Positions 1,732-47,750 of a stretch of DNA of 57,357 nt are shown here, piece after piece; the stretch's first letter is position 1, and each line of letters begins with the position of its first letter. The translations under genes were made by a program, and so were the position numbers. Under the pieces are notes generated by a model, which saw nothing but the letters and a program-made list of their open reading frames with translations, made no database searches and was not told the DNA's origin. This DNA comes from Gammaproteobacteria bacterium (GTDB taxonomy: Bacteria > Pseudomonadota > Gammaproteobacteria > UWMA-0217): contig JALWKV010000068.1 in the NCBI GenBank assembly GCA_027081275.1, positions 1-57,357 of the forward strand, in the 5' to 3' direction.

Positions 1732-3462
1732 ATGTGGATCAGTAAACGAGGGTTTGCGCGTCGGGCGGTACGCTGCTGCGCCGCCGCGGCCATGATATTG
1801 ACGGGAAGCATGGTGGCAACCGTGCAGGCCGACGAGCAGGCGGCGGCAAAAGCCGGTGAGGCCGCGGGCAAGGTCGAAATCGGCATCAACGAATATGAGG
1901 ACACGGCAAAAAAGCGGCCGGTCGACAAGTCGGTAACGCGGCTCGGTGAAAAACCCGAGGACAAGTCGACCACCGACCACGCCAAGCTAAAGGAATTGCA
2001 GGGGCCGTTCTCCAGTGGTCCGGAGGTGACCAAGGCCTGTCTCGGCTGTCACAACAAGGCCGGGCACCAGTTCATCAAGAACAAGCACTGGACGTGGAAA
2101 TACCACAACCCGAAAACCGGGCAGGATCTCGGCAAGAGCGTGCTGGTCAACAATTTCTGCACCAACGCCGCCGGCAATGAGGGAATGTGCGCGCAGTGCC
2201 ACGCAGGCTACGGCATGACCGATGCGCGCACCTACGATTTCAAGAACGAGGAGAATATCGATTGCCTCGTTTGCCACGAGTCGACCGGCACCTATTACAA
2301 GCTGCCGCCGACGCCGGGCAACAAGGCCTGCTCGGTGATGTTCGAGGGCAAGAAGCCGATCGACTATACCAAGGTGGCGCAGAGCGTGACGCTGCCGGGA
2401 CGCAACAACTGCGGCGCTTGCCACTTCTATGGCGGCGGCGGCGACAACGTCAAGCACGGCGACCTGTCATCGGCGCTGTTCAAGCCGTCGAAGAAAATCG
2501 ACGTGCACATGGGCGAGGATGGCGAGAATTTTTCCTGCATCATCTGTCACGTCGGCGAAGGTCATGAGTGGGCGGGCAGCCGCTATGCGCCGATCGCCAA
2601 GGACACGACGAAGAGCAAGCCCGGTCTGCCGCGCCAGACCGCTACCTGTGAAAGCTGTCATGGCGTCGAGCCGCACCCGATGTCGCTGATGGGCATCAAG
2701 CTGAACGACCACACCGATCGCGTCGCTTGCGAAACATGCCATATTCCAGAATATGCCACCGGTGGCGTCGCCACCAAGATCCACTGGGACTGGCGCACCG
2801 CGGGCAAGCTGAAAAATGGCGAGGGCTACCGCGAGGAGGGATATATTCAGGGCAATGGCGAGCCGCGCCATACCTACAAGTCGATCAAGGGCAATTTCAA
2901 ATACGGCGAGAACCTCAAGCCGATCTACAAGTGGTTCAACGGCACCGAGATCTACACGACGGTGCACGACAAGTTCGACCCGAGCAAACCGGTGGAGATC
3001 AACCATCTGGAAGGCAGCCCGGACGATCCGGATTCGCGTATCTGGCCGTTCAAGAAAATGGTCACGATCCAGCCCTACGACAAGGGCAACAATACGCTGG
3101 TCTACATGCACCTCTGGGGCGACGATGACGACGCCTTCTGGGGCAACTACAAGTTCGACCGGGCGATCGCCCGCGGCATGAAGGATTTCAACCTGCCCTA
3201 CAGCGGCGAGTTCGGATTCGTCGAAACCTGGTCCTACTGGCCGATCGTTCACATGGTCCAGCCCAAGGAAAATGCGCTCTCCTGCCAGGAGTGTCACGCC
3301 CGGGAAGGGCGCCTGAAGGATCTGAAGGGGTTCTACATGCCCGGCCGCGATCGTAACGAATGGATTGATCGGATCGGCATCTTCATCGTCCTGGCAACAC
3401 TGCTTGGCGTGCTCGGCCACGGCCTGTTGCGCATTCTGTTTTCACGTGGGAGGAGTCACTGA
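1732..3462 (+). CDS. Octaheme c-type cytochrome, tetrathionate reductase (OTR) family, membrane-anchored
   Basis: 576-residue periplasmic octaheme cytochrome of the OTR family, whose Shewanella member reduces tetrathionate, nitrite and hydroxylamine in vitro. Eight CXXCH haem sites are visible: CLGCH 103, CAQCH 153, CLVCH 178, CGACH 227, CIICH 269, CESCH 306, CETCH 333 and CQECH 518. An N-terminal signal peptide (about residues 1-33, ending VQADEQ) sends it to the periplasm. A single membrane helix near the C-terminus (about 549-570, followed by Arg-rich SRGRSH) anchors it, unlike soluble OTR. The stop codon overlaps the ATG of the cytochrome b gene (ATGA), so the two form one unit, inferred to be a quinol-linked reductase or oxidase. 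The physiological substrate cannot be read from sequence. Confidence 0.88.
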   Translation: MWISKRGFARRAVRCCAAAAMILTGSMVATVQADEQAAAKAGEAAGKVEIGINEYEDTAKKRPVDKSVTRLGEKPEDKSTTDHAKLKELQGPFSSGPEVTKACLGCHNKAGHQFIKNKHWTWKYHNPKTGQDLGKSVLVNNFCTNAAGNEGMCAQCHAGYGMTDARTYDFKNEENIDCLVCHESTGTYYKLPPTPGNKACSVMFEGKKPIDYTKVAQSVTLPGRNNCGACHFYGGGGDNVKHGDLSSALFKPSKKIDVHMGEDGENFSCIICHVGEGHEWAGSRYAPIAKDTTKSKPGLPRQTATCESCHGVEPHPMSLMGIKLNDHTDRVACETCHIPEYATGGVATKIHWDWRTAGKLKNGEGYREEGYIQGNGEPRHTYKSIKGNFKYGENLKPIYKWFNGTEIYTTVHDKFDPSKPVEINHLEGSPDDPDSRIWPFKKMVTIQPYDKGNNTLVYMHLWGDDDDAFWGNYKFDRAIARGMKDFNLPYSGEFGFVETWSYWPIVHMVQPKENALSCQECHAREGRLKDLKGFYMPGRDRNEWIDRIGIFIVLATLLGVLGHGLLRILFSRGRSH

Positions 3463-26192: not shown

Positions 26193-26238
26193 CGCTACGG
26201 AATTGGTTTCTCGCTCCTTTGCGTGGTGTTGGAATCCG

Positions 26239-26413
26239 CCCCGGGAGGTTGTCGCAAAAGCGGTAGCTTTGCGGCAACCTCGCGCAGCACAAGGATGTGC
26301 TGCCAGAAACAACGACGATAAGTCGTTGTTTCTGCGAGAAAAGGAAAAATCGCACTTTTTCCTTTTCGTGTGTCGCAAAGTCCTGGATGGACTTTTGCGA
26401 CACCCTCCCGGGG
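26239..26413. repeat. Five-hairpin structured repeat C, copy 1
   Basis: About 175 bases closed by outer arms CCCCGGGAGG / CCTCCCGGGG. In order on the plus strand: AGGTTGTCGCAAA/TTTGCGGCAACCT, GCAGCAC/GTGCTGC-type small stem, AAACAACGAC/GTCGTTGTTT, a GGAAAAAT-cgc-ACTTTTTCC stem and TGTCGCAAAGTCC/GGACTTTTGCGACA. Inverted relative to copy 2 (47473-47659) and to the divergent copy 3 (36473-36618). It ends 7 bases before the stop codon of the M48 protease gene. Confidence 0.75.
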
Positions 26414-26420
26414 GAGCAGA

Positions 26421-36406: not shown

Positions 36407-36472
36407 CGCAAATCTTACCGCTCAACCAATTCCGGTGCTGTGGCGTGACGCCTCCCGAGCGTCTTATGGAAT

Positions 36473-36618
36473 CTCTGAACAATTCATCCCTGAATTGTCA
36501 GAGGACGAAAAACGAAAAGTGCGATTTTCGTTTTTCTTACAGAATCAATCGCTTGAGGCGATTGATTCTGGCGGCACCTCCATGTGCCGCAGGAAGGTCT
36601 GATTTGATCAGACCTTCC
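36473..36618. repeat. Five-hairpin structured repeat C, divergent copy 3, at the rpoH 3' end
   Basis: Same hairpin order as copies 1 and 2 but with different stems: CTCTGAACAATTCA/TGAATTGTCAGAG (36473-36503), AACGAAAAGTGCGATTTTCGTT, AGAATCAATCGC/GGCGATTGATTCT, GGCAC/GTGCC and GGAAGGTCTGAT/ATCAGACCTTCC (12 bp perfect, 36592-36618). Loops and linkers (ATCC, GACGAAAA, AGTGCGATTTT, TTCTGGC) match copy 2. The last hairpin touches the rpoH stop codon, so it may also terminate or stabilise the rpoH message. Confidence 0.72.
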
Positions 36619-37479
36619 TTATGCCGCCATCGCCGTGCGCATCTTCTTGAAGGCGTTCTTTTCGAGCTGACGAATCCGCTCGGCTGACACGCCGTATTCG
36701 TCCGCCAGCGTCTGCAGCGTCTCCTTGCCGTTCTCGTTCAGCCAGCGACGGCGGACAATGTCCTTGCTGCGTTCGTCGAGCGTCTCCAACGCTTCCGTCA
36801 GTTGCGCCAGCTCTTGCTGCTGCGTGTCGTCACTCTCCAGCTGCGCCAGAGGATCGTCGCTGTCATGCGCCAGATAGGCGACCGGCGAGGCGTAGTCCTT
36901 GTCGTCGTCATCGGCCGGCAGATCGAAGCCGACATCGCGGCTGTTCAGCCGGGACTCCATCTCCATCACCTCTTCCGGTTTGACGCCAAGATCATCGGCA
37001 ATGGAGTTGATTTCCTCCTGGTTCATCCAGCCGAGACGCTTCTTCGCGCTGCGCAGATTGAAGAACAGCTTGCGCTGTGCCTTCGTGGTCGCCACCTTGA
37101 CGATGCGCCAGTTGCGCAGGATGTATTCGTGGATCTCCGCGCGAATCCAGTGGACCGCAAAGGAGACGAGCCGGACATTCATCTCCGGATCGAAGCGCTT
37201 GACCGCCTTCATCAGGCCGATATTGCCTTCTTGCACCATGTCGGCCAGCGGCAGGCCGTAACCGGCATAGCCGCGAGCAATCTTGATGACGAAACGCAGA
37301 TTGTGCAGTACCAAGGCACGCGCCGCTTCCAGATTGCCGTTCTGGCGATAGTCCTTCGCCAGTTCATACTCTTCTTCCTTGCTCAGCACCGGGAACTGGT
37401 GAGCAGCCTGGATAAAGCCATCGATATTGGCTGTCGCGACAGGCATGTTGCCTGTGATTCGCTGAAGTTCGTTGCTCAT
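36619..37479 (-). CDS. rpoH: RNA polymerase heat-shock sigma factor (sigma-32)
   Basis: 286-residue sigma-70-family factor directing heat-shock transcription. Seen: region 1.2 (VLSKEEEYELAKDYRQNG), region 2 (RFVIKIARGYAGYGLPLADMVQEGNIGLMKAV and LVSFAVHWIRAEIHEYILRNW), the RpoH box QRKLFFNLR that is diagnostic for sigma-32, and region 4 (LQTLADEYGVSAERIRQLEKNAFKKMR). Its promoter overlaps a perfect CIRCE operator (37522-37548), which points to repression by HrcA. Located after ftsYEX and a receiver-like gene, close to the classical ftsYEX-rpoH order. Confidence 0.97.
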   Translation of the reverse strand: MSNELQRITGNMPVATANIDGFIQAAHQFPVLSKEEEYELAKDYRQNGNLEAARALVLHNLRFVIKIARGYAGYGLPLADMVQEGNIGLMKAVKRFDPEMNVRLVSFAVHWIRAEIHEYILRNWRIVKVATTKAQRKLFFNLRSAKKRLGWMNQEEINSIADDLGVKPEEVMEMESRLNSRDVGFDLPADDDDKDYASPVAYLAHDSDDPLAQLESDDTQQQELAQLTEALETLDERSKDIVRRRWLNENGKETLQTLADEYGVSAERIRQLEKNAFKKMRTAMAA

Positions 37480-47395: not shown

Positions 47396-47750
47396 GTGAC
47401 AGGGCGCGCTGCCGGCTCCAACGCCGAGGTACTCATCCCTCCAAACCTCCCTTCGCCAAGGGAGGCTTTCTTCCCCCTTTTCCAGAGGGTGTCGCAAAAG
47501 TCCATCCAGGACTTTGCGACAGACGAAAAGGAAAAAGTGCGATTTTTCCTTTTCTCGCAGAAACAACGACTTATCGTCGTTGTTTCTGGCAGCACATCCT
47601 TGCGCTGTGCGAGGTTGTCGCAAAGCTAGCGCTTTTGCGACAACCTCTTCCAAAGGGGGACCGAGGGAGATTCAACAACGGTGCTTCGTGGTGACGCCGT
47701 TACTCTCAGGTAGGGGCGCGCGGCAGCGGTCTGGGGCGCTGAGTAGTTAC
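47396..47750. mobile_element. Composite repeat E with hairpin core C (copy 2)
   Basis: Arms 47396-47441 (GTGACAGGGCGCGCTGCCGG...CATCCCT) and 47671-47750 (TTCAACAACGGTGCTTCGTGG...GAGTAGTTAC) match in inverted order the arms at 32095-32396. The core here is hairpin array C, copy 2. Its right terminus TGAGTAGTTAC is close to the TGAGCAGTTAC terminus of repeat A. Confidence 0.7.
47473..47659. repeat. Five-hairpin structured repeat C, copy 2
   Basis: Outer arms CCCCCTTTTCCAGAGG / CCTCTTCCAAAGGGGG. In order: GTCGCAAAAGTCC-atcc-aGGACTTTGCGAC, GGAAAAAGTGCGATTTTTCC, AGAAACAACGAC-ttat-GTCGTTGTTTCT, GCACA...TGTGC and TTGTCGCAAAGC-ta-GCGCTTTTGCGACAA. Copy 1 has different outer arms yet keeps their pairing. 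Confidence 0.78.

Follow-up and report, generated by a model that had tools for sequence, protein, structure and literature searches.

The window, that is, the whole stretch of 57,357 nucleotides analysed here from a Gammaproteobacteria bacterium (contig JALWKV010000068.1), carries three copies (C1, C2 and C3) of a short hairpin repeat. Sequence comparison indicates that these repeats probably represent a mobile element family carrying CsrA/Rsm-binding hairpins. We read them as non-autonomous DNA transposons (MITEs, ~150-165 bp) with five hairpins (HP1-HP5) in fixed order, and their mobility is well supported. Binding of CsrA by the minus strand of HP4 and HP1 is what we infer from the loops of these two hairpins.

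Element copies in the window

C3, of the C3-type subfamily (GGAATC...CTTCC), occupies positions 36468-36618 on the plus strand, as defined by sequence, fold and alignment, and is flanked by a TTAT target-site duplication (TSD) at 36464-36467 and 36619-36622. Its insertion point is the extreme end of a gene of the sigma-70 family (rpoH-like; 36619-37479, minus strand), and the right TTAT overlaps the stop codon of that gene, so that it preserves or supplies the stop. On the basis of the fold, the hairpins are HP1 (36473-36503, containing the left terminal inverted repeat, TIR), HP2 (36507-36536, a 12-bp stem with loop GTGCGA), HP3 (36540-36570, a 13-bp stem), HP4 (36571-36590, a 7-bp stem) and HP5 (36591-36619, containing the right TIR, with an outermost A-T pair that uses the first base beyond the element). 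The HP1 loop ATCCCT (36486-36491; fold and motif) reads AGGGAT, an ANGGAX sequence, on the minus strand, and the HP4 hexaloop CTCCAT (36578-36583; motif) reads ATGGAG, likewise ANGGAX and of CsrA/RsmE type.

C2, of the C2-type subfamily (GAGGGTGTCGC...CAACCTC), was placed by sequence and fold at 47485-47647 on the plus strand between TTCCA duplications at 47480-47484 and 47648-47652. Its HP1 (47490-47521; sequence and fold) has the loop ATCCA, or TGGAT on the minus strand. HP2 (47525-47554), HP3 (47558-47588) and HP4 (47589-47608) follow from sequence and core alignment, and HP5 (47611-47647; sequence and fold) holds the right TIR. The C2 HP4 loop ATCCTT (47596-47601) matches the motif as AAGGAT (ANGGAX) on the minus strand. 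C1 (26245-26407, minus strand; sequence and fold) is also C2-type, lies inverted relative to C2 and is 97% identical to it over 163 bp; its flanks are CCGG, at best a 4-bp duplication. On the plus strand of the window the C1 HP4 (26284-26303) reads GCAGCACAAGGATGTGCTGC, in which ACAAGGATGT is an exact match to WCANGGANGW.

An earlier, sequence-only reading of this DNA had assigned an outer closing helix (CCCCGGGAGG, CCCCCTTT) to the repeat. This helix lies outside the element and consists of target-site sequence plus the duplication, for example CCCCCTTTTCCA-element-TTCCAAAGGGGG. The empty site of C2 would be the palindrome CCCCCTTTTCCAAAGGGGG; C2 split this palindrome, so what was taken for its outer helix is insertion-site sequence. 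Several C2-type copies lie within palindromes or terminator-like sites that were there before the insertion (47473-47659, 26235-26417, and loci L008 and L013), which suggests hairpin targeting by the putative transposase. Elsewhere in the window, a multihaem cytochrome c gene (1732-3462) has a Cytochrome_cB, MtrC/MtrF-like domain match, and a role in extracellular electron transfer is possible for its product.

Shared fold and covariation

The three window copies fold with z-scores of -11.9, -12.9 and -12.7 against dinucleotide shuffles. One HP1-HP5 layout is common to C1, C2 and C3, with the hairpins matching one to one, which bears out the earlier claim of five hairpins in each. Loops and linkers are common to the C2-type and C3-type elements while the stems differ; the stems quoted in the sequence-only reading do stay paired in each copy, C2 and C3 being separated by double (paired) changes in HP2, HP3 and HP4.

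In 28 ungapped HP2-HP4 cores, 96% of cells are paired and 12 pairs have changes on both sides; none of 500 shuffles scored as high, and slid registers gave only 0-5 double-changed pairs. A larger set of 162 non-redundant cores from 40 genomes or records was parsed hairpin by hairpin, the cross-genome MAFFT alignment having been dropped for pair counting because HP2 and HP3 slip by one column. Here HP2 is 90-98% paired; the parser, which may shift the register by a few bases to find the best one, slightly favours pairing. Mutual information per pair reaches 1.16 bits in HP2 and 1.36 bits in HP3, and the shuffled maxima are 0.04-0.15 bits in a shuffle that ignores the ancestry of the copies.

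Compensatory change is thus found both genome-wide and class-wide, and the stems are therefore held paired. The further step taken in the sequence-only reading, from compensatory change to selection on the fold, does not follow from covariation alone, because replication-coupled palindrome correction gives the same pattern. Better evidence of function is provided by the loop code, in which GGA is fixed and N and X are free.

Distribution and subfamilies

BLAST of C2 and C3 against their own genome resolved two subfamilies, each with at least 40 partial or full copies. A covariance model (R1) was built on the 87-nt HP2-HP4 core; this single model of the common core recovers both subfamilies, which rules out two unrelated repeats. 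The search of the genome and its relatives that had been proposed at the outset returned ~80 copies in the own genome and copies in 12 of 56 relatives. Two findings named beforehand as fatal, a lack of covariation and a set of identical duplicates to which C3 is unrelated, were not what emerged. Among 232 genomes sampled evenly from class Gammaproteobacteria, 39 carry the core, and carriers have between 1 and ~80 copies each.

A scan of named genomes, whose sequences were chosen by the HP4 pattern, found carriers almost throughout Gammaproteobacteria, including Halothiobacillus, Marinobacter, Sedimenticola, Candidatus Tenderia, the Olavius Gamma 3 symbiont, Chromatiales and Thiotrichales; entries titled Nitrospirae or Klebsiella may be misbinned MAGs. 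Several TIR types occur (IS5-like; CAGG.TGTTGAAA; GAGG.TGTCGC; TATTAACC.GGC) and TSD lengths differ, while the hairpin order is kept. Genome G022 contains HP1-HP4 tandem arrays (L095, L105, L142, L143, L146) whose units are spaced ~121-125 nt apart and are not separated by an HP5. The HP4 pattern was present in a single contig (L325, IMGVR_UViG_3300022745_000063) among 2.9 million viral contigs, and phage carriage was rejected on this count; that contig could be a prophage flank. Plasmid carriage was rejected too, the one query used having no plasmid match.

The element had been put forward as a candidate for an undescribed one, and the searches agree with this: no Rfam match above the gathering threshold was found in the window, the relatives gave no relevant match, and no earlier description was found in Rfam or in the searchable, mostly open papers, where it may exist under another name.

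Terminal repeats, duplications and IS5-family partners

The sequence-only reading had set this repeat apart from mobile repeats. That contrast is false, as the copies are TIR-bounded, TSD-flanked MITEs, some of them amplified very recently. The TIRs are held in HP1 and HP5. C2-type elements are 163 bp long (GAGGGTGTCGC...CAACCTC) with TIR ends GAGG.TGTCGC, and have a 5-bp TSD that is exact in ~14 of 21 full copies (TTCCA, TTCAG, CTACT, CACCG, CAACA, CACGA and others). C3-type elements are ~151 bp long (GGAACCTCTGA...TTTCC) with IS5-like TIR ends GGAA..TCTGA, and about half of the copies have a 4-bp TSD (TTAT, TCAA, TAAA, TATA, TTAA). Compared with the YTAR kind of the IS5 group, this own-genome set and the duplications of genome G116 (CTAG, TTAA, CTAA, TGAA) are similar but not strict. 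The elements have no coding capacity, since ~150-165 bp is too short for a transposase, and the ~80 copies are dispersed over 3.2 Mb, between genes where checked.

Candidate partners for the C3-type are the autonomous relatives L295 and L297. In same-genus genome G001, an IS5-family transposase (L295; a 403-aa frame with DUF772 and DDE_Tnp_1) is bounded by GGAACCTCTGATCAATT and GGAACCTCTGATTAATT, which equal the C3 end, and the same-genus IS5-family TIR is GGAACCTCTGAT[CT]AATT. A second IS/MITE pair, in G025, has the ends GGAAACTCTGA and GGAACCTCTGC, TTA[AG] flanks and a matching TIR; G025 also has a five-hairpin element matching its IS. These IS5-family partners share only ~18 bp of TIR with the repeats, ruling out that the element is the end of an IS, and the hairpin interior is absent from the autonomous partners examined. 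A search for an IS with the same ends as the C2-type found no autonomous partner, and neither DDE_Tnp_1 nor DUF772 was matched in the own draft assembly.

In the finished genome G116, variants of 208-213 bp are 99.5% identical at different sites, with CTAG/TTAA-type duplications. Transposition was therefore recent in this genome. These longer repeats have no ORF of their own, which rules them out as the autonomous element. Copies in G086 (L337-L346) end at recurrent points, each beside unique flanks, with the break either on the left at the inner HP1 stem (just before GTCCCTCC) or on the right at the HP5 apex (just after CTCTGCC). Such breaks suggest that DNA was cut or deleted precisely, perhaps in connection with a hairpin.

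The HP4 loop and the CsrA/RsmE consensus

The most conserved part of the element is the HP4 hexaloop, X-TCC-N-T, four of whose bases are nearly fixed while X and N are free. Across distant genomes the entropy over X-T-C-C-N-T is 1.92, 0.26, 0.13, 0.00, 1.46 and 0.23 bits, for sets of model hits that are mostly far above threshold and to whose score the loop adds only a part. The own genome and own family have the same entropy pattern. The sequence-only reading had seen conservation in the ATCC and GCAC-TCC loops but left this code uninterpreted. XTCCNT is present in ~140 of the 162 cores, with 15 of the 16 X/N combinations observed.

Within subfamilies, X/N is changed in 28 of 44 cells of the C3-type HP4, against 2 of 88 for TCC+T (Fisher p 4e-15, with copies treated as independent; they share ancestry, so the p-values overstate the significance). 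In the C2-type HP1 the corresponding counts are 12 of 52 for X/N and 0 of 78 for TCC (Fisher), while in the C2-type HP4 X/N does not exceed TCC+T in variability (p 0.4). As internal controls, the HP3 and HP5 loops vary by 12-16%. The HP2 loop (RYGYGR), for which CsrA offers no explanation, is conserved to a fair degree as well, and this counts against the CsrA reading.

Read on the minus strand, HP4 is A-N-GGA-X with C-G closing the loop, and nearly all exact WCANGGANGW matches are on this strand. According to Duss and colleagues, RsmE/CsrA binds with high affinity where the six-base loop ANGGAX sits immediately on a stem and the bases N and X loop out (PMC4005645). The HP4 minus strand agrees with this consensus, including the same two variable positions. 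The HP1 GGA is on the same strand as that of HP4 in most copies of most genomes; the C3-type HP1 is a full ANGGAX match (UCAGGGAUGA), while C2-type and same-genus elements lack the A of ANGGA. In one G116 variant HP1 is lengthened, and an additional ANGGAX hairpin (TCC[ACGGAT]GGA) has arisen. In some C3-like copies (L050, 1496-1725; L059, 1094-1323; and, by motif, L056) a longer segment takes the place of HP4, and in it a hairpin around CACATGGATGTG puts an ANGGAX-like loop on the other strand.

Host csrA and gene context

The genome from which the window comes has three csrA genes. csrA is present in 37 of the 39 genomes that carry the element (the other two are fragmented drafts) and in 205 of the 232 sampled genomes; it is near-universal in the class. 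Co-occurrence of csrA with the element is not significant (p 0.27, 232 genomes) and, csrA being common anyway, was rejected as proof of a CsrA link. The strand carrying GGA has no orientation bias toward neighbouring genes among 54 own-genome copies (sense 17, antisense 16, convergent 14, divergent 7; genes called by a simple codon-usage score). This gives no indication that the host selects copies for a role in cis, and an argument for cis-regulation from strand bias was rejected. Selection may act on the source copies of the element.

Proposed role and alternative readings

We propose that IS5-family transposases of a related genome move the C3-type elements in trans. The minus strand would be transcribed, probably within a neighbouring transcript, and its RNA would present HP4 as one strong ANGGAX hairpin and HP1 as a second GGA hairpin, which is variable; the two would bind the CsrA/RsmA dimer. 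Every copy would thereby provide a mobile CsrA site, acting as a decoy or putting the adjacent mRNA under CsrA control; HP2 and HP3 may be insulating or stabilising stems. More tentatively, it is possible that the elements serve class-wide as transposable CsrA/RsmA decoys, of which tens of copies per genome would buffer the Csr regulon, rewire it or draw genes near insertions into it.

In Gammaproteobacteria, CsrA/RsmA is a main global post-transcriptional regulator, and little is understood of how sites are added to its regulon. If the proposal is true, transposition would be a route by which a post-transcriptional regulon acquires them. Mobile, near-perfect CsrA hairpins at 1 to ~80 copies per genome would offer a testable source of sites and a natural titration experiment, and would account for an abundant hairpin repeat that Rfam release 15 does not contain. 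With covarying stems and a fixed loop code, the family is also a clean case in which to separate RNA selection from palindrome-correcting mutation.

That distinction bears on the reading we rank next, which we consider rather unlikely: that the repeats are ordinary MITEs whose hairpins have no RNA role, with template switching (quasipalindrome correction) pairing the stems and recent ancestry accounting for the loops. Palindrome correction would give perfect long stems with drifting sequence such as these, and the well-supported mobility and unbiased GGA strand fit as well. Left unexplained are the fixed loop bases beside two that take all four letters in the same hexaloop, across subfamilies with unrelated stems and ends, and a five-hairpin order kept across the class.

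An improbable alternative gives the hairpins a role as single-stranded DNA: exposed in replication or transposition, they would guide a transposase or a host factor that contacts the loops. The strong DNA folds, the TIRs inside HP1 and HP5 and the palindromic target of C2 are consistent with this. However, loops read by a transposase should change with the TIR, and the same HP4 loop occurs with several TIR types and TSD lengths; the autonomous IS partners have no internal hairpins, and DDE transposition uses double-stranded ends. A direct pairing of loop and TIR (UCC with GGA) was ruled out, as C2-type TIRs have no GGA. It is very improbable that the plus strand is the active RNA, a multicopy antisense sRNA whose UCC loops pair with the Shine-Dalgarno GGA, since, although UCC is fixed in two loops per element, longer pyrimidine runs would be favoured, and neither the final U, which is fixed and corresponds to the A of ANGGA, nor the free X and N beside UCC would be explained.

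Comparison with known systems

Like IS5-family-derived MITEs, the elements are short and without an ORF, share TIRs with an IS5-family element, and have 4-bp TSDs and many intergenic copies. They differ in a five-hairpin interior that is kept class-wide while stems and TIR type change, and that is absent from the examined IS partners. REP/REPIN elements with RAYT transposases are likewise numerous intergenic hairpin repeats, whereas DDE-type TIRs and 4-5 bp TSDs are found here. To our knowledge REP-type hairpins lack TSDs, and REP/REPIN membership is disfavoured because the element copies have them.

QMITE2 of Coxiella burnetii, compared by description only, is also a strongly folded MITE (150-190 bp), mainly in 3' UTRs and intergenic regions, and one copy is transcribed as an sRNA, CbsR16 (PMC5896051). 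It differs in its 7-11 bp direct repeats and GTAG REP-like palindrome, and no five-hairpin order is described for it (PMC5896051). No paper joining CsrA with MITEs in the present sense was found in a mostly open literature, and a review of prokaryotic MITEs does not mention CsrA (PMC10969869).

A functional parallel proposed here is with CsrA sponges of the CsrB/RsmY/RsmZ type, which have GGA-loop hairpins in pairs, as the element may have in HP4 and HP1; HP4 fits the ANGGAX-on-stem consensus (PMC4005645). The candidate GGA-hairpin sponges TwoAYGGAY and reverse-complement Bacillaceae-1 are fixed families (PMC4333381). Sponges are fixed genes or RNA families, whereas the element described here is transposable, occurs in many copies and ends in inverted repeats.
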